A DNA stretch of 39,607 nucleotides from a bacterium (GTDB lineage Bacteria; Patescibacteriota; Minisyncoccia; 2-02-FULL-40-12; IGHO2-12-FULL-4). Every line of letters starts with the position of its first letter. Within the stretch, counting starts at the first letter, position 1. A program made the position numbers and the translations under genes. The stretch covers positions 1 to 39,607 of the forward strand of contig JAUSIQ010000028.1 of assembly GCA_030647955.1 (NCBI GenBank), read 5' to 3'. Below the pieces are notes generated by a model, which saw only the letters and a program-made list of their open reading frames with translations, was not told where the DNA came from and did not search any database. Below are positions 11,516 to 26,609 of this stretch, in pieces.

Positions 11516-14014
11516 ATGCGCAAAGTTTTTCTGCGTCACACGCTTTGGGGTGTCCTCCTTACTATCGGCATACTTTTCCCTCCTGTCGTTTCTGCTCAAG
11601 TGCAGGTCACGATTAGTGGAAAAATCGCCGACGAATTGGAGAATCCTATTGCGAACGCGATGATTGTACTAGAACCGGAGCAAGCCGGTTCCCGATTGGA
11701 AATTACCACCCAAGAAGATGGCCGCTTCAATATTAGCCGCGACTTGAGCATCGCCGGCGCTTATCGCCTCTCCGCTCACGCCCCCGGTTATTACGAATTA
11801 AAAAAACCGGAGCCGATTATCTTAGTGGTTGGTCTTAACATCATATCCGTTCAGCTGATCAAAGAAGAAATGATCAAGAACTCTCTAACCGTTACCGCCG
11901 ATATTTATTCTCCGGCACACCTGAAAATTGAACAACTAGAAATGTCTCAACAGTTATCTGCCAAGCAAATTGATAATGTACCGGTGGTGCGGGCGGCTAA
12001 GCTAGAAAATGCTATCGCCGCCTTACCAGGAGTGGCCAAAGATCAGACCGGACAACTCCATCTTTATGGCAGTCCCGCCGATCAAATTAATTGGCTGTTC
12101 AATGGTTTTAGTTTAAATGATCCGGCCAGTGGCAAGCTAGAGGCTAATATCGGCATCGAGAGTATCGGAGGAATAAACGCTTTTGCCAGCCGCTACTCTG
12201 TAGAGTACGGGCCAGGCAGTGGCGGAACAATCTCCCTAGAAACCAAATCGCCGACCAATAAACATGCTTATCATTTTACTGATGCCGTGCCGGGAATCGA
12301 ATTTAACAACGGCTTGAAGTTTAATAGCTGGGGACCACAACTTAATTTCTCCGGGCCAATTAAAAAAGATCGTGCCTGGTACTTTCTCGGTTTGAACACT
12401 GAATATCGAAAAAGTTTTATTCGGGAACTTCCGGAAACTGAAAACGAATTCAGCTATTGGAATAGTAGCGGCGTCAGCCGCTTCCAATTAAACTTGAGCC
12501 CGCGCCACACTCTCCATGCCGGCCTACTCTATAATTACTTTGATGCTCCACAATTCGGCTTAAACCCTTTCGCCCCCCTGGAAACCACCGCCCATCGTCG
12601 CTCCCGACGAACCTTCCTTTACGCCAAAGATCAGTTCTTTCTTTCGCCAAAAACGATGTTTGAAATTGGCTACGGATTTTACCGCTCCGGTCATCGCGAA
12701 GAACCCCGCGGCCAAAAGCCCTATCAGCTGTTTGGACCATATCAAAAAGGCAATTACCCTTTTGATCGCCGCCAAGACAGTGATCGCCACGAACTGCTTA
12801 TCAATGCCCTCCTCACTCCCTGGTCTTTTTACGGAACGCATCAGTGGAAAGTGGGAGGAAATTTTCAGTATCTAAGATATGACCAGGATATTATGCGCAG
12901 TAGTATCGAATACTTTCGCGTCGATGGTACCAAATCTTTCGCGATGAACTACGGCGGCAACGGCCAATTAAGCAAAGCCAACTTGGAGAGCGCTCTATAT
13001 TTCCAAGATCGTTGGACCATTCCGGGCCAACCCTGGCTGATGATCGAAGGCGGTTTGCGCGTCGACTACAATCGTCTTTTGGGCCAACTACCGATTACCC
13101 CTCGCTTCAGTCTTGCCGCCCTGCCGCCTTGGCTAAAAACAAAAACTAAGTTCTCTGCCGGCTTCGGCCTGATTCCCGAGAAAATTAATCTAGCTCTCTT
13201 TACTCGACCGCTGGATCAATTTGTTACTTTTACTCGCTTCTCTCCAGACGGACGCGCCCAGCAAACTAGTCTGCGCTTCCTACCCTTTACTCCCCAGGCC
13301 TTGAAAATGTCGACTATCACCAACACCAGCTTCGGAGTGGAACAGGGCTTTCCTTACAAAATATTTTTGCAGTTCAATTATCTACGCAAAAGAGGGCAAC
13401 ATGGTTATACTTTCTTCCAAGTTCCTTCCCTCCGCCTCAATAGTGATCTACTTTATCGCTTGCAGAGTTCTAAGTCTGAGTCCTTTAACTTTATGGAAGT
13501 GGCGATTAGTAAACAATTTCTTAACAAGTACGACTGGTTTGCCAGTTACGCTTGGTCTAAGGCAATTTCTAACGCCGCCCTCGACATTAACGCTGAAGAT
13601 GCCATTGTCCATCGAAAAACGGCCGGACGTTTGGCCTGGGACACTCCTCATCGATTAACTTCTTGGGGGATATTCCCTCTCGGACAAAAAGAACATCATC
13701 AGTTTTCTTATTTTCTAGAATGGCGCGATGGCTTCCCCTACTTCGCCTACAACGACCAAGGAGAGCAGGTTGGCAACTACAACTTTGACCGCCTACCAAG
13801 ACAGTTCAATCTCAATATTCGCTACGCTTGGAAATTCCGCTTTTGGCGCTATGGATTAAGATTACAACTCGGCTTCGACAATATCGCCAATCGCGCTAAT
13901 TACAATTTTGTTAATCAAAATATTTCTTCTTCCGCCTTTGGAGCTTTGAGTGGCAGTCAGCCGCGCCGCTTCGTTGTCGGTTTACGGTTCTTAAACAAAG
14001 ATCAGATAAAATGA
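11516..14014 (+). CDS. TonB-dependent-receptor-like outer membrane protein, 832 aa
   Basis: A signal peptide (1-27, cleavage after V-V-S-A before Q) precedes a carboxypeptidase-regulatory-like beta-sandwich (about 30-115; T-I-S-G-K-I-A-D and G-R-F-N-I). A TonB-box-like L-T-V-T-A-D follows near 125. The plug (about 140-245) includes L-E-N-A-I-A-A-L-P-G-V, L-F-N-G-F-S-L-N-D-P and Y-G-P-G-S-G-G-T-I-S-L-E-T-K-S. The rest is a barrel rich in alternating aromatic strands, whose last strand R-F-V-V-G-L-R-F resembles an OMP beta-signal, with seven extra residues after it. This architecture is common in Acidobacteriota and Bacteroidota receptors taking up glycans or peptides. No tonB or exbBD is in the window. 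Start ATG has AGGTGA upstream. Very unexpected if the host is Patescibacteria. Confidence 0.85.
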   Translation: MRKVFLRHTLWGVLLTIGILFPPVVSAQVQVTISGKIADELENPIANAMIVLEPEQAGSRLEITTQEDGRFNISRDLSIAGAYRLSAHAPGYYELKKPEPIILVVGLNIISVQLIKEEMIKNSLTVTADIYSPAHLKIEQLEMSQQLSAKQIDNVPVVRAAKLENAIAALPGVAKDQTGQLHLYGSPADQINWLFNGFSLNDPASGKLEANIGIESIGGINAFASRYSVEYGPGSGGTISLETKSPTNKHAYHFTDAVPGIEFNNGLKFNSWGPQLNFSGPIKKDRAWYFLGLNTEYRKSFIRELPETENEFSYWNSSGVSRFQLNLSPRHTLHAGLLYNYFDAPQFGLNPFAPLETTAHRRSRRTFLYAKDQFFLSPKTMFEIGYGFYRSGHREEPRGQKPYQLFGPYQKGNYPFDRRQDSDRHELLINALLTPWSFYGTHQWKVGGNFQYLRYDQDIMRSSIEYFRVDGTKSFAMNYGGNGQLSKANLESALYFQDRWTIPGQPWLMIEGGLRVDYNRLLGQLPITPRFSLAALPPWLKTKTKFSAGFGLIPEKINLALFTRPLDQFVTFTRFSPDGRAQQTSLRFLPFTPQALKMSTITNTSFGVEQGFPYKIFLQFNYLRKRGQHGYTFFQVPSLRLNSDLLYRLQSSKSESFNFMEVAISKQFLNKYDWFASYAWSKAISNAALDINAEDAIVHRKTAGRLAWDTPHRLTSWGIFPLGQKEHHQFSYFLEWRDGFPYFAYNDQGEQVGNYNFDRLPRQFNLNIRYAWKFRFWRYGLRLQLGFDNIANRANYNFVNQNISSSAFGALSGSQPRRFVVGLRFLNKDQIK

Positions 14015-14051: not shown

Positions 14052-14074
14052 AAAAACCGAGGTTGGCTCGGTTT
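14052..14074 (-). terminator. Intrinsic terminator of the glycosidase gene
   Basis: AAACCGAG (14054-14061) / CTCGGTTT (14067-14074), 5-nt loop, followed on the minus strand by TTTAAATT. It overlaps the glycosidase stop codon and faces the receptor terminator. Confidence 0.8.
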
Positions 14075-15572
14075 AAAATAATTGTGCGAAAGAAATTCTT
14101 ATCCAGGATTTCGTGGAATTACCCGTGCGATCATAGGCAACCGCTACCAGTAAACCACCCCCGGAACGAGTTAAAAACTTCTCTCTTTTTAAAATAGTTT
14201 GGTAGGGAGCAGCGTACAGGACATCGAGCTTTTCCCTATCGAGCCAGAACTCCACCCTCTCTACTTTGTCATTATCGCTCGCCCCGGCGTAGATAATCTG
14301 ATCTGCCAACAAGCGTGCACGGTTAAAGGGGTAGGTTAAAACAATTTGCGGAGGAGTAACATCGGGATTCTCCACTACGGTTGGCCAGCCCAATATCTGA
14401 TTGGTATCTTTGAGCTTGGTAAGAATAAAATCAGTCATCCCCGGTTCCAAAGTATAGAGCTGTTCGTAGGCTACATAGTAGGGAAAGTTGGGATAATACT
14501 GCCAACCCCATAGCGCGCTAAAAGGTATCCTTAGTGAAACAATTTTTCGCAACACGCTTTGCGTAAAGCGACCCTCTCCATCTTGAGGAATACTAGGATC
14601 ATTATCTCCAAACTCTCCTAAAAATAAGAGCTTGCCCGCAGCATCGGCTATCGCTTTCACTATATCAAGTATATCGGCATTGTCGGACCCTCGGATAGAA
14701 AAGCGCTCATTGTCCCGACTAGTGCAATCCGCGTTCTCGCAGAAATTATAAGGATGGTAGCTGATGATGTCGAAGGCTTTATGCATCTCCAAAAGATTTT
14801 TGATAAATTCGCCCATCGAATCTTCTGTCCAGTCCGGTCCGTTCTCAGACCATTCCGGCTGTCGCTGAAGGTGCACCGCGGTGCGCCGCGATCCATAAAA
14901 TCCGGAGGAGATCATCCGCGAAGGATCCAAAGAACGCAATTCTTTCGTAAACTCCAAGGTAAAATTAATTAATTCGTCCGAGGTGAAATTCTCGCCTTTT
15001 AGCTTAAAACGGCGATCAATGTCAAGCTCGGCATCCAAGTCCCACTCATTCCCCATCTCCCAGAAGAGGATGTCGTCTGAATCTCGATAACGCAAGACTA
15101 GTTCCGTCATGTATTGATTGAGTAAACTTCGAGATTTTGAGTTACGATCGGTAAGAAAGGTATGAGTGTTTTCTTTGGCCAGTAGCGGAAATTGTCTTAT
15201 CCACCAAACCACGGTCGGAATAATTTTTATATTATTCCGATGCAAATCGACGATCATCTCATCAAACTTTTCCCAATATTTTTCGGGGTTAGCTTGCCAG
15301 ATCAAAAGATCTCGATGACTATACCCCGAAGCAGCAATTCTAAAATATTTTATCCCCAGATTTTTAGCATCCACGATGGATTTCTTACCCATCGCTAAGG
15401 TCACCGCGCGCGGAACCTTCTCCCCCGAAGCCGTTCCCAAGTATTGTAGCCAGAGATCAAATTTGACCAGCCCTACCGCCGGACGCACCGGACCAATTTC
15501 ATCTTCCTGCCCATAAGACATTATCATTGTAGCCACAACCATCGCGAGAAGTAAAATACCTACTCTGCGCAT
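14073..15572 (-). CDS. Secreted clan GH-A (GH5-like) glycoside hydrolase
   Basis: A signal peptide (to about residue 21, ending M-S-Y-G before Q-E) precedes a (beta/alpha)8 glycosidase. Counted from ATG 15572, the acid/base is Glu166 in W-E-M-G-N-E-W, the nucleophile Glu310 in F-L-G-E-F-G, and His263 lies in I-S-Y-H-P-Y; these are the usual clan GH-A positions. A C-terminal Ig-like domain (about 405-499) opens with T-P-P-Q-I-V-L-T-Y-P and has D-N-D-K-V-E-R-V-E-F-W. Likely an endo-acting beta-mannanase or cellulase type enzyme, substrate unknown. An upstream in-frame GTG (15578) is the alternative start. It is last of the secreted-protein genes on this strand and lies in a convergent pair with the receptor gene. 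Confidence 0.85.
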   Translation of the reverse strand: MRRVGILLLAMVVATMIMSYGQEDEIGPVRPAVGLVKFDLWLQYLGTASGEKVPRAVTLAMGKKSIVDAKNLGIKYFRIAASGYSHRDLLIWQANPEKYWEKFDEMIVDLHRNNIKIIPTVVWWIRQFPLLAKENTHTFLTDRNSKSRSLLNQYMTELVLRYRDSDDILFWEMGNEWDLDAELDIDRRFKLKGENFTSDELINFTLEFTKELRSLDPSRMISSGFYGSRRTAVHLQRQPEWSENGPDWTEDSMGEFIKNLLEMHKAFDIISYHPYNFCENADCTSRDNERFSIRGSDNADILDIVKAIADAAGKLLFLGEFGDNDPSIPQDGEGRFTQSVLRKIVSLRIPFSALWGWQYYPNFPYYVAYEQLYTLEPGMTDFILTKLKDTNQILGWPTVVENPDVTPPQIVLTYPFNRARLLADQIIYAGASDNDKVERVEFWLDREKLDVLYAAPYQTILKREKFLTRSGGGLLVAVAYDRTGNSTKSWIRISFAQLF

Positions 15573-15589
15573 AGCCACCCCATTTAAAA

Positions 15590-15639: not shown

Positions 15640-16515
15640 TCACTTTTTTTCAGATTTTTCAGCTTTCTTCATGCCCGTCTTAGCACTATCAAGAAAGCGA
15701 CTAATAGTCTCAACTAAAATTACATAACTATAGGAAGCGGTGGTACGCGCTACCACTCCCACTACCACTCCATCTGGAGTGATCAGAGGACCTCCGGAAA
15801 AACCTTTTTCCACTCCTCCCTGAACGATCCCCATCGGATAAACCATCCCACTGGATAATAGATTGGTCATGGCCCGCAGTGGTCCAATTTGAATCGAGAA
15901 AAAAGCGCTGGGATTAGCAGGAAAGAAAGAGAATGCATAAAGCTTCTCCGCTAGAGGACTTTTCGATAATGTTTCCGAGGGCATCGTTGCCGGCTTAGAA
16001 CCAAACACAACCTTATCGACATTGGGAGAAACAACTTTTAACAAAACCAGGTCTGCCTCATAGCTGAATGAAGCCAGCTCCGCATCGAAAATGTTTTTTC
16101 CATCAGTAACCTGAATAGTCAGCGGAAAATCCTTGTCCGACCAAATAGCCGGATAGGCCGGTCCCAAAACATGCATACAGGTCAGCACATAACCATCCCA
16201 GCCCGGCGGCACAAAACCGACCCCCGAGAAAGTATCGTGATGCATCCCGCCCTCATCTTCGCCGTAATGAATAATCTCCACACGGATAGGTACAATTGAA
16301 TCTTTTCTGAGATTATTAACGGGATCGGGCAAATATCCATCCATGGAAAGAAAGGTGGGAATTTTATTGGCACCAGAAGGCGCGGTACTTTTCTCCGCCT
16401 CCTGCTCAAGATGTTTTGGATGCAATACTTCTTTTTCCTGAGCCTGCCCGGGCCATGCCCCAGCAAAAACGGTTATAAAAATAACAAAACCTATTCTTCC
16501 TGCATTTCCAAACAT
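15640..16515 (-). CDS. Secreted trypsin-like serine protease (S1/S1C fold), 291 aa
   Basis: I set the start at ATG 16515: it has GAGGATG just upstream and gives a proper signal peptide (cleaved near G-Q-A-Q, residue 25). The open frame extends 33 codons further without a signal-like start. The catalytic triad is His115 (T-C-M-H-V-L), Asp155 (E-A-D-L-V-L-L-K) and Ser240 (G-F-S-G-G-P-L). There is no PDZ domain and no membrane anchor, unlike DegP/DegS, and a charged K/E tail closes the protein. A protease domain this short after a 60-residue linker suggests processing of surface or extracellular proteins. Terminators on both sides make it a separate unit in the secreted gene series. Confidence 0.85.
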   Translation of the reverse strand: MFGNAGRIGFVIFITVFAGAWPGQAQEKEVLHPKHLEQEAEKSTAPSGANKIPTFLSMDGYLPDPVNNLRKDSIVPIRVEIIHYGEDEGGMHHDTFSGVGFVPPGWDGYVLTCMHVLGPAYPAIWSDKDFPLTIQVTDGKNIFDAELASFSYEADLVLLKVVSPNVDKVVFGSKPATMPSETLSKSPLAEKLYAFSFFPANPSAFFSIQIGPLRAMTNLLSSGMVYPMGIVQGGVEKGFSGGPLITPDGVVVGVVARTTASYSYVILVETISRFLDSAKTGMKKAEKSEKK

Positions 16516-16600
16516 GGCATCCTCTATTTTCAATGATCCAGCTGTTTTGAGTATAGGACTCCTCTCTTTGCTCGTCAAATGAATATTTCTTGCTGGATAA

Positions 16601-16628
16601 ATAAAAAAATACACGGTTATCCGTGTAT
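16601..16628 (-). terminator. Intrinsic terminator of the metalloprotease-lipoprotein unit
   Basis: ATACACGG (16609-16616) / CCGTGTAT (16621-16628), TTAT loop, then TTTTTTATTTAT on the minus strand, 4 nt beyond the lipoprotein stop codon. Confidence 0.9.
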
Positions 16629-16631
16629 TAA

Positions 16632-18200
16632 TTACTGCTTGGGAAGGCGGAAGTGTACATGTTGGTGACCTCCACCCTGTTCATTGTAAGCATCCACGCC
16701 ATTAGAGTTATCGACGGCTGTTTCCAGTCTCAACTCATAGCTACCATTACTATCTTTATCCCAGATGATAAATCTCTTCTCCCCTTCCGTGAAGACCACC
16801 TTGTAAGGCTTGTCCTCAATGAAGTTATTAATCCCGGGAGTAATATTGGCAAATTTTATTTCGCCATTGGCCAGTTCGATTCGAATGCGTTTTCCATTCT
16901 CTTCGACAGCCTGTAAGACATTTCTTTCGTTGAAAGGAGCTTTTAGACGAAAATACTCAATCACCGAACCCGTCCCGCTGAAAACCTTGGCCACATAATC
17001 CAGTTGCTTATTAGCAGCATCGGGATTATCAGCATCAACCTCTTGCTTGGGCTTAGCAAAACCCACCTTCACCGTATAGTTATCCTTTTGGGAGCTCTTA
17101 TACCCAAAGGGGACCTTCCAACCGGCCGGAGTAGAGGCCTTTTCCCATAAATCCACCGGCGCTCCCACTTGAGCAATTTCCACCTTGATATCCGGCTTGA
17201 CCGGAGGAACTTTACGACGCTCCTTCGGCTTATCGGGGAACAGGACATCGATAGTGGCCTCGGTCATCATCATCCGCGCGGAAACAATCTTGCTCACCGC
17301 AAGGACAATTTCCGGTAAGCCAAAGCCTGATTCTTTTTCCCGATCCTGATCAGCCACGACCACGGAGCGATCCTCAAAAATAAAAATTTTCAGAGCCGGT
17401 TTGCTTTCTTCCTTAAAAGAAAGTTGATTACCAGGATCGACCACCAGTCGCGTGCCCTCGATATAATCCACTTCATTGTCCTTGGGCTTCTGGCCACTGT
17501 GAACAATTTTGTAGCTTCTAAAAAGCAGGCCGCGCTGAACCGGTCGCCAATTAAATTTATTCTGATCATTCGGCGAGTTCGGATCTGGTTCTTTCAAACC
17601 ATAGGTCTGCTTAGCAAACCAGACAAACTCTTCCACTGGCTGCAAGTTTTTATTTTTCCTCGCCTCATTCACTAGGTCACTTTCAAAACGATACATATCT
17701 CGAAAGTCTCCAGAAGCATAAAGCTTCTTGAGGTCAACCATCGCTAAGGGACTGCCTTTCCCGGAAGAATTACGCAACCCCATATGAGTCTGAAATTGAT
17801 TTTCAAGCTCTAATACCCTCAAACGATCGTAGGTTGTTTTCAACAGATCTTCTTTGCGCTCGTATTCTGCCCTAAGACCAAAGTAAGAGATGAAGCTCGC
17901 CCACGCCTCGTTCTTATAATCCAGGATCACGCGAAAATCTTCTAGTCTCTCACCAAGCCATTGGCGAATTTGTTCCCAGCTCAATTTTCGAAAGGAAACA
18001 TCGAAACTATTTTTATTCTCGTCCCATTTTAGAGCAATGAATTTAAAAGAATCGGCATACGCCGCCATACGCTCTTCTTCGTTATTTCCTCTCGCTTCTC
18101 GTAGCTTGGTAAATTCGGTTCGATAGCGTTTCACGCAACCGCTATTCGATCCCAAAATTACTAAAGCTAACAATGGCCAGAGCCATGTGCGTCGCATCAC
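16632..18200 (-). CDS. Putative lipoprotein of unknown function, 522 aa
   Basis: The N-terminus has a short hydrophobic stretch ending S-N-S-G-C-V (Cys22), a tolerable but not ideal lipobox. Residues 25-200 are helical and charged, residues 200-350 mixed alpha/beta, and the C-terminal 150 residues look beta-rich, with A-N-I-T-P-G-I-N-N-F and D-K-D-S-N-G-S-Y-E-L-R-L. The last resembles a calcium-binding D-x-D-x-N/D-G loop, and the chain ends G-G-G-H-Q-H-V-H-F-R. I do not recognise the family. Its ATG overlaps the TGA of the HELIH protein gene by 4 nt, so the two products are likely made together and may interact. A possible ligand-binding partner or inhibitor of the protease is speculation. 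Confidence 0.7.
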   Translation of the reverse strand: MMRRTWLWPLLALVILGSNSGCVKRYRTEFTKLREARGNNEEERMAAYADSFKFIALKWDENKNSFDVSFRKLSWEQIRQWLGERLEDFRVILDYKNEAWASFISYFGLRAEYERKEDLLKTTYDRLRVLELENQFQTHMGLRNSSGKGSPLAMVDLKKLYASGDFRDMYRFESDLVNEARKNKNLQPVEEFVWFAKQTYGLKEPDPNSPNDQNKFNWRPVQRGLLFRSYKIVHSGQKPKDNEVDYIEGTRLVVDPGNQLSFKEESKPALKIFIFEDRSVVVADQDREKESGFGLPEIVLAVSKIVSARMMMTEATIDVLFPDKPKERRKVPPVKPDIKVEIAQVGAPVDLWEKASTPAGWKVPFGYKSSQKDNYTVKVGFAKPKQEVDADNPDAANKQLDYVAKVFSGTGSVIEYFRLKAPFNERNVLQAVEENGKRIRIELANGEIKFANITPGINNFIEDKPYKVVFTEGEKRFIIWDKDSNGSYELRLETAVDNSNGVDAYNEQGGGHQHVHFRLPKQ

Positions 18201-19654
18201 CGTCCTCCTTTTCCAGACATCTTACTTTCCAAAACCTGCCAAATTAATCCTTTGACCTGTTCAGGACTCATCTTCATGACATCTTCCGGCTTGAGCTTCA
18301 GCTCTTTTAAGAAGCGACTGACTTCAGTCTCGTTGTCAATATTTACTCCTAATAAGAGAGCTAGCTGCCTCAGCATCGGCTGTGCCATCGCTCCTTCTTT
18401 TCCTTCTTCCATCTTCGTACCACTAAGCTCCCACGCTTTTTCGGCATCCACTCTGATATTGTCCTCGTTGGCCTTAAGCCAACGCGCGGTATTCTCTCGT
18501 CCTCCTAAAATGGTGGGCTCGTACATTTTGCGCATCATAATCCAAAGGACGGCGCGATTATCAGCAAGCTTGTGATGCATCGCTGACCACAATACGATCT
18601 TGCCGTAAAATTCTCCAAGCGCCTTGGGAAAAAATTTCACATACTCCGCCTTGATCTGATTAAGCATCAGCGCGTAGTGATCAAACTTTTTCTCATCGAT
18701 AAAAAGATTACCGGCGGCATCGAACTGAATGACCTCTTTGCGCACACGCTTATAGTTATATCCAAAGAAAACCCAGGCCAGCTCGCGCAGATCCGGCACG
18801 TAGCTATGAAACTGCAAGTTAATATGATCATCCGAAGACAGCATCGAAGGAATCGAAGCGAAGAACTCTGTATCAAATCCCTCTGAGAAAGGAATAGATT
18901 GTAGAACCTTATTGCTATGGATTAATTCATGCTTGGTAACCATCGGAGCTTTTAAAAGATAGTCCGCTACCTGGCCAATAGGAGTAAGATACACCACTCC
19001 GGTATCGAGCCACGTAAAACCGATCGCTCCGGGAATAGCTGGGCCATAACCCAGATGCACTTCTCGCGGAATAAAATCTTTCTTCTCCATCTGCTTGGGT
19101 AGCCAGTAAAGTTCGCTTAACGTAAAGCGCGGATTTTCTGGAGCGGGCTTATTAAGAACCTTATCAAGCTCCGCGGCTGTAAGACCAATACCACTCTCTA
19201 CTAAACCTTCGATCGCCCACTTGCGCAGATCGCCGTAGAACGCAAAGTTCGCGTCCACAGACTCTCGTAGAGAACGCATCGTCCAGTCCACCACCACCTG
19301 TAGTTCGGCAGGCGTAATAATTTCCTGTCCGAGAAAATTAGTAAAACGAATACGGCCATCGGGCAGGCGTACATAATGATCGAGCACTAGAACAATTTTC
19401 TGCCCATCAATTACACCATTCACTTTAATAGCGTTAACCGGAATGAGCCGAGCATGATCATCGCTATTCGTTTCGTAAGCCTTCTGCATCGCCGCCAAAT
19501 ATCGAAAATATTCCGCCCACTGCTGACTTGGTTTGTTAGCCTGAATCACTCCTGGAGGGAAATAATGCGGCAGAGTCTGACTCTTCGCTGTAACTGTCAT
19601 GAAGAAAGAAAACAAAACAGAAAAAACAAAAATGCGAGACCGTCGAGTATCCAT
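18197..19654 (-). CDS. Secreted putative zinc metallopeptidase (HELIH), 485 aa
   Basis: A signal peptide (to about residue 25, T-A-K-S before Q-T-L) is followed by a long helical protein. V-T-K-H-E-L-I-H (239-246) contains a perfect HExxH zinc-peptidase motif: His242, Glu243, His246. E-G-F-D-T-E (258-263), 12-17 residues on, offers a candidate third ligand in a shorter than usual gluzincin-type spacing. The rest matches no family I know, so protease activity is inferred from the motif and location only. ATG at 19654 is preceded by GAGAGGAAG. First gene of a two-gene unit with the putative lipoprotein (4-nt overlap). A short C-terminal helical region (430-480) is rich in K and E. Confidence 0.72.
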   Translation of the reverse strand: MDTRRSRIFVFSVLFSFFMTVTAKSQTLPHYFPPGVIQANKPSQQWAEYFRYLAAMQKAYETNSDDHARLIPVNAIKVNGVIDGQKIVLVLDHYVRLPDGRIRFTNFLGQEIITPAELQVVVDWTMRSLRESVDANFAFYGDLRKWAIEGLVESGIGLTAAELDKVLNKPAPENPRFTLSELYWLPKQMEKKDFIPREVHLGYGPAIPGAIGFTWLDTGVVYLTPIGQVADYLLKAPMVTKHELIHSNKVLQSIPFSEGFDTEFFASIPSMLSSDDHINLQFHSYVPDLRELAWVFFGYNYKRVRKEVIQFDAAGNLFIDEKKFDHYALMLNQIKAEYVKFFPKALGEFYGKIVLWSAMHHKLADNRAVLWIMMRKMYEPTILGGRENTARWLKANEDNIRVDAEKAWELSGTKMEEGKEGAMAQPMLRQLALLLGVNIDNETEVSRFLKELKLKPEDVMKMSPEQVKGLIWQVLESKMSGKGGR

Positions 19655-19699: not shown

Positions 19700-20686
19700 T
19701 TAATTGAGACCCGAGTCAAGTTCTAAATATGAGCCAAATTCCTTCCAAGAATCAATGGTTTTATTATATTTTTGTAAAATCCTTCCCTCGGCGGAATTAG
19801 GATGAAATTCAAGCTGCTGATCGCTCATCGTGATACGTCCCGGCAAATTCAACTGCACCCTGCTGCGCTGCAAAGCCCTGGCCCAATTTTCCAGCTTCCC
19901 CCTAAACATAAAATTCAAAACAACCTCGGCTAGACTAGCAATTTTTTGTAAAAATTTATTCTCCTGAATATGCCGATATTGGTAGCCATCCAAGTGCTCC
20001 CAGTTCTGTAAATAATTTTCAATCCAAGTATTTTCTCGCCAAAAATCATCCAGCACTTCTTTGCGCCGTACATAGACCGGAATCAAATGAGCGTAAAGTT
20101 GCGCCGTATACAAACTGACGCAGGGAATACGTAACGAACGGGTCGTAATAAAATGATTGGGACAAATTTTATCCGGAGCAATAATTTGTTCTTTGCGCCG
20201 TCTTACGCCCATTATTCCAAAAAGCACATAGACGAATAAGCGCGCCGTCCAAATCCGTCCAGACTTGGCGACAATCAACATATCCAAATCGCTATTTTCC
20301 GTCATGTGCCCCATCGCCAAAGATCCACTGGCCAATACCAGTTCAATAAAAGGCAAAGACTGGATCCAAAATAAATACCGCCGTGCTTTTTTCCATTTTT
20401 CTTCCGCCAGCTTAATCCTTTCAATCCTTTCTAAATAAATATGTTTTTTTCCGGGAAGAAAATAAAAACCCAGAAACTCCTCCACCAGTCCTTTGAGTTT
20501 GAGATTCTGTAACACTTCTTCAATTTGCCCATACCCCAGCTCCTCCTTTTTCCGAGTAAAAATTTTTTTATCAACAAACTTCTCCGGATTAATTAAAAAA
20601 CGCGTAACCTCTCTGACGGTTAATGGAAAATCTAACACATCAAAATAGGCCAAGGTCGCCAAAATAGATTTTTCTAAAGCTGCCAT
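19700..20686 (-). CDS. Nucleotidyltransferase-domain protein (Pol beta-like), 328 aa
   Basis: The central A-S-G-S-L-A-M-G-H-M-T-E-N-S-D-L-D-M-L-I-V matches the GS-x(9-10)-DxD metal site of Pol-beta-type nucleotidyltransferases (about residues 120-140). An N-terminal region (1-75) looks like a winged helix (T-V-R-E-V-T-R-F-L and L-K-L-K-G-L-V-E-E). The C-terminal half is helical with a hydrophobic stretch. I have the impression that proteins of this layout are frequent in Patescibacteria; the substrate is unknown. It lies between the two halves of the accessory block, 45 nt upstream of the metallopeptidase gene and downstream of the MxaL-like gene and its terminator, and supports a single genome of origin for the whole block. 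Confidence 0.75.
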   Translation of the reverse strand: MAALEKSILATLAYFDVLDFPLTVREVTRFLINPEKFVDKKIFTRKKEELGYGQIEEVLQNLKLKGLVEEFLGFYFLPGKKHIYLERIERIKLAEEKWKKARRYLFWIQSLPFIELVLASGSLAMGHMTENSDLDMLIVAKSGRIWTARLFVYVLFGIMGVRRRKEQIIAPDKICPNHFITTRSLRIPCVSLYTAQLYAHLIPVYVRRKEVLDDFWRENTWIENYLQNWEHLDGYQYRHIQENKFLQKIASLAEVVLNFMFRGKLENWARALQRSRVQLNLPGRITMSDQQLEFHPNSAEGRILQKYNKTIDSWKEFGSYLELDSGLN

Positions 20687-20711: not shown

Positions 20712-20736
20712 AAAACAAAAACCCCGCATGGCGGGG
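20712..20736 (-). terminator. Intrinsic terminator of the MoxR-VWA operon
   Basis: CCCCGC (20722-20727) / GCGGGG (20731-20736), 3-nt loop, then TTTTTGTTTTT on the minus strand directly after the stop codon of the last gene. Confidence 0.92.
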
Positions 20737-21825
20737 CTAGAACAAAAGAATACTAAGTAAAAAAAGGATGGCGCAGGCCGCTAGAACATACCAATAAAGC
20801 TCCTGTTTTTCTCGAGTTATAACGCTCACTCCTTTTTGCCTCTCATCTTCTAAAATAGTGTGCAAGAATGTGCTCACCTCCGCGGAGGAAGTGCGTAGAC
20901 CGAAATAACGCGCCCCTGTCACTACACTAATAGATTTTAGATTTTCCTCCTGCAATTTCGTAAAGATCTTATCGACCTTCTCCACCTCTTTTGAAAGTCC
21001 CGTAGGATGATCTCCGAAATCTACAGAAGTTTTTTCTTTATAGACATGTTTTACAGAGGTGCCTTCGAGAGTTCCCACACCAATGGTGTAGACCGGCCAA
21101 GCCTCTTGTCTGAAATTGCGCAGTATACCATCAAACTCGGCTATTTTCAGATCTCGCTCTTTTTTGGCCTCCTCATCCTTGGCTGGCTTTAAAAAATTAT
21201 CATCCCCGTCCGAAAAAAGAATGACGACGACCTGCCGCTTTTTGTACGCCGGACTGTCCATATCAAAGCTAACTTGGTTTTTAAGAAAGGCGAAGGCGTA
21301 GCTTAAGGCGAAGGAGAGATTAGTATCCCAAGCATCCGCTCCTTCCGGATCAATATCCAGGTTATTCAGTCTAAATAAGATATTGCCATGGTCATGAGAG
21401 AAAAAAGAAACCATCCCCACACCTTTATCAAACCGCATCATCGCCACCCGGTCGGCAGATTTTATCTCCGCAGTCACTAGGCGCCGAATCTCTTTTTTTA
21501 CTCGCCCAAAACGCGCGCCCCAAATATCATCCGCTAACATCGAAAACGAACTGTCCGCCATGATAAGAATATCTAAGCTTTTATCTTGAGGCAGATCGAC
21601 CACCTTTTGCGGTCGTGCTAACGCCACAATTAATCCCGCGGAGATGATAATAAAAAGGGCCAAAACTTTGCTCTGGCCCCAGAAAGAAAATCTGGAATAG
21701 AGAGTTTTGGCCGGACGAGACCGTACTTTTGAAATCAGTTGTACCATCCACCATCCTGCTAAGCCTAAACAGATCCATAACCACGGCAGATAGCCAGGTT
21801 TAACCCACTCGATGTTGTCTAGCAT
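20737..21825 (-). CDS. VWA-domain membrane protein, MxaL/BatB-like
   Basis: Two N-terminal TM helices (about 13-31 and 54-70) precede a von Willebrand A domain with a full MIDAS start D91-S-S93-F-S95 and L-F-S-D-G-D-D. One C-terminal TM helix (about 340-360) anchors the end. This is the BatA/BatB and MxaC/MxaL architecture, in which the VWA domain sits outside the cytoplasmic membrane and works with a MoxR ATPase. I use ATG 21825 (preceded by GAGAGG) rather than the upstream ORF start at 21858; it lies 1 nt after the stop of the TM-plus-tail gene. Sixth and last gene of the cluster. A VWA insert (about 150-260) has many charged residues. Confidence 0.85.
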   Translation of the reverse strand: MLDNIEWVKPGYLPWLWICLGLAGWWMVQLISKVRSRPAKTLYSRFSFWGQSKVLALFIIISAGLIVALARPQKVVDLPQDKSLDILIMADSSFSMLADDIWGARFGRVKKEIRRLVTAEIKSADRVAMMRFDKGVGMVSFFSHDHGNILFRLNNLDIDPEGADAWDTNLSFALSYAFAFLKNQVSFDMDSPAYKKRQVVVILFSDGDDNFLKPAKDEEAKKERDLKIAEFDGILRNFRQEAWPVYTIGVGTLEGTSVKHVYKEKTSVDFGDHPTGLSKEVEKVDKIFTKLQEENLKSISVVTGARYFGLRTSSAEVSTFLHTILEDERQKGVSVITREKQELYWYVLAACAILFLLSILLF

Positions 21826-21826
21826 C

Positions 21827-22510
21827 TCATCCTCTCTTATTCGATCCGCCCGAACCACTTTGGCGCCCGATGTCTTTAATATTGTAAGGCTTCTTTCCGC
21901 CGCTGGGCTTTGGGCCTTTCACTTTACCTTCTTGACCCTCTTTGCCTTCTTGCGGATTTTGCCCTTGCGCCTTGGCTTTTTGCTTTGCCACCACTTTCTG
22001 TCTCGTCTGCTTATCCGCCATTATTTCGTAATTGAATTTGCTATCAAAATGATCGGGATCAAGAATAATAGACTTAAAATATTCTTCCTTGGACTGATCA
22101 AGAATATTTTCACTTCCGCTAGAGGACAACTCCTCCGCTACTACTTTTCTAAAGTAGGCATTGCCTCGCGCAAAATGGGCCCAACTCGCTTTAACTCCTT
22201 TAGTCCGTTTGAGGACGGCTTCGTATTCGCCGTTCTCGTAGAGCCACGTCACTTCATTCTCAAGAATAAAGCGGAAAATAAGCAGTCGATCCAAAACACG
22301 CTCTGCTTTTATCTGTCGGCCCCAGTCGTAAAGTTCGTAGAGGTGCTTGCTATGCTTAGCAACTTTTTCCTTGTCGCCAGACTCAATCGCCTGACTCAAT
22401 TTTTCATTACAAAAGTAAAGATATCCTAAAGAGAATAGCGGTCCACAAATTGCCAAAGCAATCAGTAGAGCCGCTCCCAGTTCGAGCAAAACTCTCCTGA
22501 GCCTGGCCAT
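21827..22510 (-). CDS. Membrane-anchored helical protein with basic tail, MxaK/BatC-like
   Basis: One TM helix (about 10-32) precedes a helical region (35-165) with TPR-like character, for example Y-E-A-V-L-K and A-H-F-A-R-G-N-A-Y-F. It ends in a 60-residue tail of K, G, Q, P and S (K-A-K-A-Q-G-Q-N-P and G-S-G-G-S-N-K-R-G). BatC proteins are TPR-containing partners of BatA/BatB, and MxaK is a similarly small anchored protein. Sequence identity alone does not name it; the position between two VWA genes does. It has a terminator-like hairpin upstream, so its expression may differ from the four genes before it. Confidence 0.7.
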   Translation of the reverse strand: MARLRRVLLELGAALLIALAICGPLFSLGYLYFCNEKLSQAIESGDKEKVAKHSKHLYELYDWGRQIKAERVLDRLLIFRFILENEVTWLYENGEYEAVLKRTKGVKASWAHFARGNAYFRKVVAEELSSSGSENILDQSKEEYFKSIILDPDHFDSKFNYEIMADKQTRQKVVAKQKAKAQGQNPQEGKEGQEGKVKGPKPSGGKKPYNIKDIGRQSGSGGSNKRG

Positions 22511-22555
22511 CTTTTTTCCGCCTTTAGTTATAAAAGTTCTCTAGCTTAACTGGTA

Positions 22556-22590
22556 ACAAAAAAAGCGCCAAGGGTCAATCCTAGGCGCTT
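22556..22590 (-). terminator. Terminator-like hairpin inside the MoxR-VWA operon
   Basis: AAGCGCC (22563-22569) / GGCGCTT (22584-22590), 14-nt loop, then TTTTTTTGTT on the minus strand, 3 nt after the stop codon of the first VWA gene. It splits the cluster into four upstream and two downstream genes; a -10-like TATAAC follows but no clear -35. Confidence 0.8.
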
Positions 22591-22592
22591 CA

Positions 22593-23573
22593 TCATGGAA
22601 AGTCTCTAAACCAGGGAGATAGAGCAATAAGTAAAGCTCCTACGAGTACAAAGAAAGCTGCTCGAGCCCAAGGCTCAAAAAGAGGAATGTATCCCGAAAG
22701 CTTTTGAGTCAAAACTTTAGTAGTTTCAATTTGATCAATTTTATCCACTGCCTCATCAATGGCCGCCGCACTCTCTCCGGCGAAATATATTCCGCCGGCT
22801 TTTTTAACCGTGTCTACCATAATCAATCCATTGGGAGAATTTGCTACACCTATCCCAATAAGATAAATGGTAATTCCTTCTCGCTGAGCTTCCTTAATCG
22901 CTTTAGTCGGATCCGTATTGCTATCCGCATCGGTAAAAATTACCAACACCCGTTTTTTTACATCCTTATCTCCATGACGGATAAAATAATTTTTAGCCGC
23001 ATTCACTGCCACATCGATCTGGGTCCCACTTTCTCCGTACTGGTCAAATTTAATGCTATCCAAGAGAAAGCGATAATAATTAAAGTCCTTCGTAAAGCCG
23101 GAAATGATGTAGGTGTTATCAGAAAAGATTAACAGCGCATACTGATCCAAAGACTTTGTTCGTCGCAATATTAATTTTTTAATTGAATCGGTGGCCACTT
23201 TAAATGGCACCGGAGTGCCGCCCATCATACTGCCCGAGAAATCGAGCATCATCACCAATTGGCGCGTTTCTTCGTGATCATTTATTTCTCTTTGCTCTAA
23301 GACCGGATCAGCTAAGGCCACCCCAAACAATAAAGCCGCGGCCAGAAATAAAAACTTGGGAAGATGGAACCAATATCCTCTCCGCCGTAGCCTGTTTAAA
23401 TTTGAAAGGGAGAGATCGGAAAATACCCAGTACTGCCGGTACTCATTCCGACCTCTCCGATTTCGTCGCCATCGCAGTATTAAGCGCAAGGCGATAAAGA
23501 CCAGCGCTACGGCAATAATAATCTGTACAAAAGGCCAATGTAAAAACCTTACTTCTTCACCGAAACTGAACAT
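22593..23573 (-). CDS. VWA-domain membrane protein, MxaC/BatA-like, 326 aa
   Basis: TM helices at about 15-33 and 70-89 and a C-terminal TM at 303-321 frame a von Willebrand A domain. The MIDAS begins D111-F-S113-G-S115-M, with V-I-F-T-D-A-D later, so metal binding is probably intact. I set the start at ATG 23573 because TAGGAG lies 5 nt before it; the frame reaches back to 23621 across the preceding stop. It follows the MxaA/BatD-like gene by 8 nt. The MIDAS-bearing domain in Bat/Mxa systems is thought to bind a client or cofactor-insertion intermediate. Confidence 0.88.
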   Translation of the reverse strand: MFSFGEEVRFLHWPFVQIIIAVALVFIALRLILRWRRNRRGRNEYRQYWVFSDLSLSNLNRLRRRGYWFHLPKFLFLAAALLFGVALADPVLEQREINDHEETRQLVMMLDFSGSMMGGTPVPFKVATDSIKKLILRRTKSLDQYALLIFSDNTYIISGFTKDFNYYRFLLDSIKFDQYGESGTQIDVAVNAAKNYFIRHGDKDVKKRVLVIFTDADSNTDPTKAIKEAQREGITIYLIGIGVANSPNGLIMVDTVKKAGGIYFAGESAAAIDEAVDKIDQIETTKVLTQKLSGYIPLFEPWARAAFFVLVGALLIALSPWFRDFP

Positions 23574-23581
23574 ACGCGCTC

Positions 23582-24613
23582 CTATCTTAACCGGCGCAAG
23601 AACAGCTTCGTTCGGCCCCATAAACTAAAGTTGCCAAGAAGGACTAGAACCGCTTTCGATTCCGTGTCGAAATTCGGGATAACCTCGTCTCGCCACTGAT
23701 GATACTGCCATCTTTCCCAAACCTTAAGCAGCTCTTTCCCAGCCTCTCCATACCATTGAGAACTAGCCTGCTCAAAGGCCCGAGCAGCTTCGTCTGCCGT
23801 TTTAGATTCATGGGTTCGCAAAAGTGCCAGACAGAAAAAATCTCTCAAAACACTAATCGCTAAACCTTGTTTCTGCAAAGTCACATCCACTGCGCATCCA
23901 CAGGCGAGCTGATTAGAAATTTCTTTAAGTCTTTTTCTGGTTTGTCTGGCCGCTCTAAATAAACTAGGGAAAACTTCTCGAGCTACTCCGGCTATTACCG
24001 GTCCTCGCCACGATTTTACCAATACCGTAGTGCGCCAACCGACAAAGCTCATCAGTAAAAATACCGAGAGTCCCATCAGGATCAATCCCCGATACGGAAA
24101 AGTATGCAGCGCTTGTCGATCTCGAATATCGTCCACATCTTTATACAGAGTGCTCCGCCATTCCACCGGAACTTTTTCCAGCTTATATTCCTTCTGCGGG
24201 AGCTCCTCTACTTTTTTACCCGGCTCCAAAACCACGTAAGGAATAACCAACGCCTCGATCGTCATGCTCACTTTACGAATTTCAAAGTTTCTAATTCGAT
24301 AATGAGCTTTTAAAACTTTGAGCTCTCCGTGCACGGTGTCGCGCAATTCTCCGGACACCACCTCAAAAGGGGTGAGTAAGATCCGTTTCGGATCAAGTCC
24401 ATTGCGAACAACATGAACGTTGTCGGGATAATAGATATTGAGATAAAAATCTAATTCGTCTCCCACAAAGAAAGCCGTTCGGCCTATCTGGGCCTCGGCC
24501 CATAAAGGATGGGCCTCAGCCGGATTTGCGGCCACAGTTGGCGGCAACACCTGGGCCATCACTGGCACCCAGAAGGCACTTAGCATAATCAACCACACAA
24601 ATTTCTTTCTCAT
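23582..24613 (-). CDS. Signal-peptide membrane protein, MxaA/BatD-like, 343 aa
   Basis: The signal peptide (1-20, cleavage after P-V-M-A before Q) is followed by an extracytoplasmic beta-rich domain (about 25-165; G-R-T-A-F-F-V-G-D-E-L-D-F-Y-L-N-I-Y-Y), one TM helix (about 178-196) and a cytoplasmic helical domain (200-343). The layout of exported beta domain, TM and C-terminal cytoplasmic part is that of BatD and MxaA. The ATG overlaps the TGA of the DUF58 gene by 4 nt. Its sequence is too divergent for a symbol. Confidence 0.75.
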   Translation of the reverse strand: MRKKFVWLIMLSAFWVPVMAQVLPPTVAANPAEAHPLWAEAQIGRTAFFVGDELDFYLNIYYPDNVHVVRNGLDPKRILLTPFEVVSGELRDTVHGELKVLKAHYRIRNFEIRKVSMTIEALVIPYVVLEPGKKVEELPQKEYKLEKVPVEWRSTLYKDVDDIRDRQALHTFPYRGLILMGLSVFLLMSFVGWRTTVLVKSWRGPVIAGVAREVFPSLFRAARQTRKRLKEISNQLACGCAVDVTLQKQGLAISVLRDFFCLALLRTHESKTADEAARAFEQASSQWYGEAGKELLKVWERWQYHQWRDEVIPNFDTESKAVLVLLGNFSLWGRTKLFLRRLR

Positions 24614-25524
24614 CTCAGTATTCTCCTTTCTAGAAATTTTTCTACTAACCTATCAAGATATTTCTTTTCCGTATCCCAGGGAAGATCAATCCAATCTCCG
24701 CCCAAACCGATCACGTCCTTTTGCAAGGCTTCTTTTTGTTTATTAAGCTCTGCCATCACTACCACTAAATCTTTCTGGCTCAGACGAACCGTTTGACCCG
24801 TCTCCACGTCTCGTATTTTTATAAATCCATAGCGCCGTTTAAAATTTTCTTCTTCCGGAACCACTGGACGAAAAGCGATCAAGTCGTGACGCAAAGCTAA
24901 GCTTTTTAAAACCGCTCTGTCCACTGCATGCGCTCCGCCCAAAAAATCGGAAACAATCGGTAAGAAACACGGCCGTCGCGACTGCTGTTCGATTTGCCGC
25001 AAAGCGGCATTAAGATCAGTAGTCTGCGGCTGAAATTTTTTACTCCCTTGCTCTAGTTTTTCCCATAATTGTTCCAGTAGATAATAAACCTGATTTTTTC
25101 CTCCGCGGGGTTTGAGGGACAAACAAACCTCCTGATCAAACCCCACACAGCCCACGGCATCCCCTAAGTGACTGGAGGTGAACGCGATCGCTCCAAGTAA
25201 TTCCATCAGAAAATAACTTTTCAGCGGAGAACTTCCGAATAAAATTGAACGGCTTAAATCCGCCACCATCACGGTGAGCACTTCTTTCGGCTCGACAAAC
25301 TCTTTAACCAAAAGTGGGGCGTCATCAGTGGTTCTGGCGGCACTCGCTCGCCAGTCAATCTGATGCAGATCATCTCCCGGTTCATACTCTCGAATATTGA
25401 TAAAATCCAAGCCACTGCCTGTTTTACGACTGCGATGCTCACCAATCCTTAATCCTTTGGAAAGACGATAACTCACTAAACCATCGATCTCTTGCAGCCT
25501 ATCCTGCAACTCTTTGGGTAACAT
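24610..25524 (-). CDS. DUF58 domain protein, MxaS-like, 304 aa
   Basis: The DUF58 core is visible: Y-E-P-G-D-D-L-H-Q-I-D-W-R-A-S-A-A-R-T (about 47-65), then V-M-V-A-D-L-S-R-S-I-L-F, which resembles the VWA-like D-x-S-x-S strand end. R-x-Y and G-S-G-L-D-F-I-N-I-R-E precede it. There is no TM segment, so it is likely cytoplasmic or peripheral. DUF58 proteins sit next to MoxR ATPases in Bat, Mxa and other VWA systems and are regarded as adaptors. Its start overlaps the moxR stop by one base (TAATG), indicating tight coupling. Confidence 0.92.
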   Translation of the reverse strand: MLPKELQDRLQEIDGLVSYRLSKGLRIGEHRSRKTGSGLDFINIREYEPGDDLHQIDWRASAARTTDDAPLLVKEFVEPKEVLTVMVADLSRSILFGSSPLKSYFLMELLGAIAFTSSHLGDAVGCVGFDQEVCLSLKPRGGKNQVYYLLEQLWEKLEQGSKKFQPQTTDLNAALRQIEQQSRRPCFLPIVSDFLGGAHAVDRAVLKSLALRHDLIAFRPVVPEEENFKRRYGFIKIRDVETGQTVRLSQKDLVVVMAELNKQKEALQKDVIGLGGDWIDLPWDTEKKYLDRLVEKFLERRILR

Positions 25525-26558
25525 TAGGGCACCGGCGTTTTGTCTAAAATCAATTCCAAGATTTCATCCGGAGTGATTTTTTGCGCCTGCGCTTGGGGTT
25601 TTAAAACTAACTTATGCGGCAGCACTAAGCGCGCCACGTACTTCACGTCATCAGGCAGAACCGTATCGCCTCCCCGCAGAAAAGCCCGTGTGACCGCGGC
25701 CGCCTTCATCTGAAATTCGTTGCGTGGAGAAATACCCACCTCGATATACTGAAGCACTTCTTTTAGTTGAGAGCGCTCCGGACGAGAGGCATCAAAAATT
25801 TCCACCACATATTTATCCACCAAACTTCCTTTTTTCACATAGTCCGTGATAAAGCGCGCTACTTCCATAATCATCGCCGGATTCGCCACTCTCTTAATCA
25901 CCTTGCCCCGCAAACTTTCGGCACTGATTTTCATTTCCGAATCTCGATCGGGATAATTAATTCTAATTCTCATAAAGAAGCGGTCTAATTCCGCTTCCGT
26001 CAGAGGATACGTTCCTTCGCTTTCAATCGGGTTAGCCGTAGCCAGGACCCAAAAAAATCTCTCGGTCGTCGCCGCTACTTCCATCAACGGATAAACCGCC
26101 TCTCCAATCGTCACCGCTCGCTCTTCCATCGGCTGCAAAATAGCGGATTTAGTTTTGGGAATAATCCGGTTCAGTTCGTCAATCAAAACGACATGGCCAA
26201 AAATGGGCCCGGGCATCATCTTAAATTCTCGGGTCTTTTGATCAAAGACCAAGCTGCCCGTAACGGCACTCGGCAGCAGATCCGGAACGCCCTGAATACG
26301 CTGATACTTGGCATCCATCGCCGCCGCCAGTGCGCTGGCCAACTCGGTCTTACCGGTACCCGGCACACTCATCAATAAAATATGTCCCTGCCCATAGCAC
26401 TTTTCTCTGCCGTTCGCCGCAGAGTACGGCGCACGAGCAAATAGTCCAATCATGCAGTCGTCAATCACCTGGTCTAAACCAAAAAGAAACTGTCGCGGCT
26501 GTTCCGCCACCGCTTTGATAATTTCCCGAGCCTTCTCAAGATTCATTTCTTCTCTCAT
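25524..26558 (-). CDS. MoxR-family AAA+ ATPase, MxaR-like, 344 aa
   Basis: A AAA+ module of the MoxR clade: Walker A V-P-G-T-G-K-T (65-71), Walker B V-V-L-I-D-E-L-N-R (123-131), sensor 1 A-T-A-N-P, and the P-L-T-E-A-E-L-D-R-F motif typical of MoxR. The C-terminal lid follows. MoxR ATPases act as metal- or cofactor-insertion chaperones together with VWA proteins. It is first gene of the six-gene cluster. I chose ATG 26558, which has GGAG 6 nt upstream, over the ATG at 26570; a third in-frame ATG is 26546. Divergent from uvrC. Confidence 0.93.
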   Translation of the reverse strand: MREEMNLEKAREIIKAVAEQPRQFLFGLDQVIDDCMIGLFARAPYSAANGREKCYGQGHILLMSVPGTGKTELASALAAAMDAKYQRIQGVPDLLPSAVTGSLVFDQKTREFKMMPGPIFGHVVLIDELNRIIPKTKSAILQPMEERAVTIGEAVYPLMEVAATTERFFWVLATANPIESEGTYPLTEAELDRFFMRIRINYPDRDSEMKISAESLRGKVIKRVANPAMIMEVARFITDYVKKGSLVDKYVVEIFDASRPERSQLKEVLQYIEVGISPRNEFQMKAAAVTRAFLRGGDTVLPDDVKYVARLVLPHKLVLKPQAQAQKITPDEILELILDKTPVP

Positions 26559-26609
26559 CCCAATCTCCATTCACTTGTAAAAGTTCATTTTCTAGGCTTA
26601 AAGTACCCT

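Follow-up and report, generated by a model that had tools for sequence, protein, structure and literature searches.

What kind of machine is encoded by six genes that follow the order of the methylotrophs' mxaRSACKL cluster, in a patescibacterial genome of 0.94 Mb? The genes lie on the minus strand, between positions 26570 and 20737, of contig JAUSIQ010000028.1 (assembly GCA_030647955.1), whose full 39,607-nucleotide (nt) length is referred to here as the window; G numbers denote genomes (G000 being the window's own) and L numbers loci. Open frames and Pfam matches confirm the succession given in a preliminary description of this DNA: a MoxR ATPase, a DUF58 protein, a protein with a signal peptide and one transmembrane (TM) segment, a VWA protein, a small TM-anchored protein, recognised here as TPR-type, and a second VWA protein. 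That description likened the set to mxaRSACKL, through which methylotrophs load calcium into methanol dehydrogenase, and proposed an export-side loader of metals or cofactors; we argue here that the operon probably encodes a Bat-type (Bacteroides aerotolerance) MoxR–VWA machine, with a cytosolic ATPase and outward-facing VWA, BatD-like and TPR parts, which would remodel exported proteins. Ribosomal protein L30 was found in none of 41 genomes (the window's and its relatives) as against 13 of 14 controls, a lack that we take to be consistent with Patescibacteria / the Candidate Phyla Radiation (CPR).

Working along the coding strand, the MoxR-type AAA+ ATPase (348 aa; 25524..26570), the DUF58 protein (304 aa; 24610..25524) and the third protein (343 aa; 23582..24613) are joined through TAATG and ATGA overlaps. 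VWA protein 1 (BatA/MxaC-like; 22593..23621) overlaps the third gene by 40 nt from its first ATG, or follows it after an 8-nt gap from its second (likely start 23573); the fifth protein, BatC/MxaK-like with a Gly-rich tail (227 aa; 21827..22510), lies 1 nt from VWA protein 2 (BatB/MxaL-like; 20737..21858) if the latter begins at the ATG at 21825, its likely start, instead of the listed GTG. The tight start/stop overlaps remarked upon in the preliminary description thus hold for most junctions but not for that between VWA1 and the fifth gene, an 82-nt gap containing a strong terminator-like hairpin with a T run (22557..22590, minus strand; −15.4 kcal/mol, z −4.4, with none of 200 shuffles equally good), although this hairpin is absent from the listing of the terminator consensus scan. 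A second terminator-like hairpin, identified by that scan together with folding energy, lies 3′ of VWA2 on the same strand (20720..20738). Given the gap and its hairpin, there may be two transcription units, MoxR–DUF58–third–VWA1 and TPR–VWA2, with the nucleotidyltransferase gene that follows being separate.

The arrangement recurs. DUF58 is found in 25 of 188 genomes of the class and, within the order, in 20 of 45, the window's own included. The comparison covered 39 loci, six of them cut by contig ends and 33 uncut; as loci were chosen by DUF58 or third-protein matches, the presence of those two genes is by choice, whilst that of the rest is not. The pattern DUF58-x-VWA-(fifth)-VWA is kept in 33/33 uncut loci—the fifth gene of L057 being unhit by the TPR hidden Markov model (HMM), and L055 having two frames in the third place—with MoxR directly upstream of DUF58 in 30. 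The three others (L050, L052 and L053, from three genomes) have no recognisable MoxR gene upstream of DUF58; two loci, L082 and L084, carry an extra VWA. Because it recurs in relatives, an outcome on which the preliminary description had made its idea depend, the gene order is more than chance.

At the level of individual proteins, the cluster has the features of the MoxR–VWA chaperone class: an AAA_3 MoxR with Walker motifs, and VWA partners bearing a metal-ion-dependent adhesion site (MIDAS). MoxR matches AAA_3 (6.8e-47) and AAA_lid_2 (5e-17) in Pfam, has 2r44 as its closest solved chain (3e-56), carries Walker A (SVPGTGKT) and Walker B (VLIDELNR) motifs and, with zero TM segments, is predicted to be cytosolic. 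Scored by aligned columns, since variants escape a strict pattern, the Walker A lysine is kept in 32/32 aligned MoxRs and the Walker B D-E in 31/32. A MoxR subclade (L034, L035, L036, L037, L075) has an altered Walker A, G-G/S-T-G-x-G-K-T, and four of these five are also changed at the residue after the sensor-1 Asn. The DUF58 protein (Pfam DUF58, 6.7e-32) has a VWA-like fold, no TM segments and a predicted role as a cytosolic adaptor. VWA1 (Pfam VWA, 6.3e-16; TM segments 31–49, 85–103 and 320–338) has as its best NCBIfam match the Leptospira BatA family (BatA_Lepto, 2.6e-20), and VWA2 (VWA_2, 1.9e-13) has BatB_Lepto (1.4e-10). As previously noted for this DNA, both VWA proteins keep the D-x-S-x-S metal site (DFSGS at residue 127 and DSSFS at residue 102, respectively); to these we add a third such motif, DLSRS, at residue 89 of the DUF58 protein.

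The third and fifth proteins, whose kinship to MxaA/BatD and MxaK/BatC the preliminary description had singled out as decisive, give a divided answer. The third protein has no Pfam or NCBIfam family match; its AlphaFold model (alignment of 17 relatives, pLDDT 77) consists of a signal peptide, a beta-sandwich, a TM segment and a helical domain, for which a fold search of the PDB returned general Ig-like/TRAP-type matches alone, with low TM-scores. Profile comparison with hhalign gives 87% against an internal domain of BatD, 29% against the small BatD of Bacteroidota and 2.8% against MxaA—pairwise probabilities, without database calibration, for which two unrelated control families score below 1%—and an MxaA HMM has zero matches among the third proteins of relatives in the window's order. 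The third protein therefore looks BatD-like, not MxaA. For the fifth, Pfam gives a weak TPR match alone (0.05) and NCBIfam BatC_Lepto (5e-4); its model (alignment of 24 relatives, pLDDT 82.6) shows a TM segment and TPR-like helices, and the fold search returned TPR folds alone, none at an E-value of 0.001. By hhalign it matches MxaK at 96%, part of BatD at 72% and BatC at 17%, and its HMM picks up MxaK proteins, down to 3e-13, so that profile evidence makes it a TPR-type relative of MxaK. Saying this, the match to MxaK is unspecific, because MxaK and BatC match each other at 92%.

Phylogeny places the window's operon on the Bat side. Mxa references, obtained by scanning a published mxaF primer over named genomes and taken among the matches listed, include the mxaRSACKL-order loci L208, L210 and L211. 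In the MoxR tree (87 rows; several long branches and, taken alone, a weak backbone) the window falls inside a 15-row clade of relatives with support of 100/99, whilst 41 MxaR proteins, likewise among the matches listed, form a group at 100/100 with L041 and L045 only, the window lying outside. An unrooted tree of four genes from 44 loci separates Mxa, L041 and L045 from all else (100/100), with the window on the non-Mxa side together with Bacteroidota and gammaproteobacterial Bat. The Bacteroidota Bat operons (L086, L214, L215) share the start of this order and the side of the four-gene tree, as well as the component set of MoxR, DUF58, a small BatD-like third gene, two VWA genes and a TPR gene; in the window, too, MoxR, DUF58, BatA/BatB-type VWAs, a BatC-type TPR protein and a BatD-like protein stand in one cluster.

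These results bear directly on the reading that the operon is a true MxaRSACKL-type inserter, supplying metal to some secreted enzyme that is not methanol dehydrogenase. The order of the genes is identical to mxaR-S-A-C-K-L (the accessible portion of PMC3615186; L208, L210, L211), the fifth protein and MxaK are related, and the MIDAS sites are kept; yet the MoxR clade lies outside MxaR, the four-gene tree agrees, the third protein has no MxaA match, and the genome contains no quinoprotein dehydrogenase, leaving this reading highly unlikely. The likeness to mxaRSACKL thus stands for gene order, architecture and fold set but not for lineage, and order as proof of Mxa was rejected on the third-protein profiles, the MxaA HMM and both trees. 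In agreement with the earlier remark that no mxaF, xoxF or cytochrome is present, no CXXCH motif occurs in window frames of at least 60 aa, and TIGR03075 and PF01011 have zero matches anywhere in G000; across the 188 genomes of the class, TIGR03075 gave 12 weak matches, none over the cut-off, which we do not count as dehydrogenases.

Mxa-lineage operons do occur in this class, in two of the window's more remote relatives, though by tree and profile the window's operon is not one of them. L041 (7896-12757, genome G126), which stands directly after rpoB-rpoC, and L045 (149-5420, genome G096) match both the MxaA profile (2e-16 and 1.5e-39) and the MxaK profile (2e-13 and 2e-6). On a contig other than that of L045, G096 encodes a propeller with a weak TIGR03075 match (3.6e-13, under the cut-off), and the 12 genomes with such matches do not include G126; the two operons thus raise the question of what Mxa does without a cut-off-level methanol dehydrogenase. 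Two further loci labelled mxa, L085 and L224, were set aside as MoxR–DUF58 clusters of another type, from the annotation of L085 and the tree place of both; MoxR–DUF58–SpoIIM/RDD clusters (L085, L087) share MoxR and DUF58 with the window, but their annotations show neither a VWA pair nor a TPR gene alongside. One member of the Methylophilaceae (G230) carries three mxaRSACKL-type clusters on a single contig (L218, L219, L220), two of which lie apart from the mxaF match.

The preliminary description also asked which gene always accompanies the operon. A trypsin-like protease is at or near it in 20/20 operon-bearing genomes of the order, the window's included (15640..16614, minus strand; secreted, Trypsin_2, 7e-11; a relative of the conserved operon protease), and in 5/20 loci elsewhere in the class. 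The columns of the catalytic H, D and S show no variation (16/16), and many relatives have a lipoprotein-type start; in G035 the protease and a DUF58 fragment are neighbours on a second contig. Strong members of the protease profile (E < 1e-30) occur in 17/20 genomes with DUF58 and 2/25 without (Fisher 2e-7, the query rows coming from operon genomes), and the three remaining operon genomes have diverged proteases only. A weakly NTP_transf_2-like nucleotidyltransferase-fold protein with a GS...DLD motif (19700..20686, minus strand) is near the operon in 17/20 operon genomes, but its presence in 44/45 genomes of the order, operon or not, counts against it as a partner and it is therefore kept as a landmark only. 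After the nucleotidyltransferase, L034 (1474-3186) and L082 (1638-3491) encode an exported protein of ~600 aa with a weak SpoIVB peptidase S55 match, possibly a second protease.

It could be that protease and nucleotidyltransferase are positional neighbours by descent with no working link to the machine. The ubiquity of the nucleotidyltransferase favours this, as does retention of the protease in the two exceptions, G039 and G041, where 140 and 213 nt separate the protease match from that of the nucleotidyltransferase, with order and orientation as around the operon; searches for DUF58 and the third gene found neither in these two genomes, so that the six genes look to have been lost as a single block. 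However, the operon-type protease is concentrated in genomes with DUF58, its position varies (upstream, inside or downstream of the operon) and yet stays near, and it is also present at five of the 20 loci outside the order, such that we regard mere neighbourhood as a tenable but minority reading.

A second class of neighbour suggests what a client might look like. PF01011, searched across the 45 genomes of the order independently of the operon, is found in four, and in all four at this operon (L075 3051-4544; L079 12282-13781; L080 5395-6897; L035 3659-5290), three of them at 114-664 nt from a core gene and the remaining one at a distance of 1.4 kb from MoxR. In G021 and G035 the quinoprotein gene lies between VWA2 and the nucleotidyltransferase, in G027 it is divergent, between MoxR and the protease, and in G036 it is upstream of the protease. 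The best NCBIfam match for all four is ‘acido-empty-quinoprotein’ (2e-91 to 2e-142), below its cut-off; the phrase ‘empty quinoprotein’ has no occurrence in the literature among the matches listed. Aligned to five MxaF proteins, with MxaF numbers assigned by a 32-residue offset, the four keep Trp243, Asp303 and Arg331, but the disulfide Cys pair and Glu177 are missing in 4/4 and Asn261 in 3/4; we take these to be the methanol dehydrogenase residues of those names and roles, and the losses make a metal site as in MxaF unlikely. In G021 and G035 small secreted Cys-rich proteins adjoin the quinoprotein (L075 4640-5149; L080 6953-7384), both carrying a GCTCVRKC...CxCPxPC tail and one being also Met/His-rich and possibly metal-binding.

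These genes raise the idea that the client is, now or ancestrally, a quinoprotein-fold beta-propeller, which the window's genome would have lost or replaced. Location at the operon in four cases of four, in three arrangements, argues against mere inheritance of position, and the shared ‘empty’ family points the same way; nevertheless, 16 of the 20 operon-bearing genomes, the window's among them, are without any such gene, and the lost MxaF residues speak against an MxaF-like metal site. On balance we consider this unlikely.

Returning to the Bat-type machine, a MoxR ring in the cytosol and the DUF58 protein would act on four membrane-anchored partners—the two metal-site VWA proteins, the BatD-like beta-sandwich protein and the TPR protein—whose working domains would face outward. 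Energy from ATP hydrolysis would be relayed from the cytosol through the membrane parts such that exported proteins are folded, remodelled or released, with the trypsin-like protease as a putative outer-face partner that trims or removes clients. In VWA1 the loop that joins TM segments one and two is positively charged, so that its VWA domain is predicted to lie outside; the C-terminal domain of the third protein is predicted to lie inside. This topology for VWA1 matches that of BB0173, a VWA protein of the inner membrane whose orientation, according to the available text of PMC5700661, is towards the periplasm. A working precedent is NorQ–NorD, in which, as the accessible part of PMC13036017 describes, a MoxR ATPase acts on its MIDAS-bearing VWA partner, twisting and stretching it to let metal in. 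NorQ–NorD is made of two proteins without DUF58, BatD-like or TPR parts and its client is known. Metal loading by the present machine is possible.

An outward-facing VWA domain is also compatible with surface adhesion or sensing, the metal sites of a single-membrane cell binding host or neighbour proteins, and integrin binding is described for B. burgdorferi BB0172 (PMC5700661, in the portion available). Against this, MoxR, DUF58 and TPR parts are constant and would be superfluous for simple adhesion, and the same portion of that paper gives BB0173 as not surface-exposed; we attach very little credence to an adhesive role.

Several observations weigh against the Bat-type machine. Every Bat match in NCBIfam scores below its cut-off, and the 29% by profile between the third protein and the Bacteroidota small BatD drops to 6% against a single sequence. 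The inner branches on the Bat side are weak (74/59 and 95/77), with MoxR alone leaving them unresolved. Unlike the Bacteroidota Bat operons, with their VWA-VWA-TPR order, the window has the TPR gene before the second VWA (VWA-TPR-VWA) and lacks both BatE and a second, large BatD; genes for a protease and a nucleotidyltransferase are close by, and identity between the MoxRs is about 36-40%. As for the protease, three genes (those for the nucleotidyltransferase, p8 and p9) separate it from VWA2 in the window, 16 of its 17 strong matches in operon genomes belong to genomes from which query rows were taken, the genomes being related, and it persists in the two genomes without the machine. In the accessible portion of PMC3557215, finally, deletion of bat in L. 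biflexa is reported to give no oxidative-stress or growth phenotype.

The machine is thus of a kind already known, here in an altered version and a new lineage; the open-access literature searched yielded nothing linking MoxR with Patescibacteria and, for Parcubacteria, nothing related. Its main value lies in named neighbours that make Bat function—which ‘remains elusive’ in the words of PMC3557215, as far as that text was available—testable: a minimal genome that keeps all six genes, a protease that is almost always nearby and, in four relatives, an adjoining quinoprotein relative offer concrete clients to test. Joining these elements, the Bat machine and a dedicated outer-face protease might mature exported proteins including the ‘empty’ quinoproteins. 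Bat and Mxa would in that case be branches of a single system for the maturation of exported propellers that predates methanol oxidation, and client maturation, not oxygen defence, would be the function of Bat. This wider proposal we judge decidedly unlikely as a whole; if true, Bat would serve the same kind of client fold as Mxa serves in methylotrophs.

Two other genes of the window, p8 and p9, were considered as linked clients and rejected, having no matches in the 27 relatives' loci searched; p11 has one (L038). The suggestion that a metalloprotein-like neighbour might be the client is thereby weakened for p8, an exported 485-aa, zincin-like protein with a HELIH motif and no family match (18197-19654, minus strand). 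The product of 14073-15578 (minus strand), which is cellulase-like (GH5) and contains a bacterial Ig domain, has a homologue near the operon in L038. Beyond it, an exported protein of 832 aa (11516-14014, plus strand) combines CarboxypepD_reg with a sub-threshold TonB plug match; it resembles a receptor of the outer membrane, which would be odd in a CPR cell. Full-length relatives (34-35%) are encoded by G016 and G024, two of the 57 other genomes covered.

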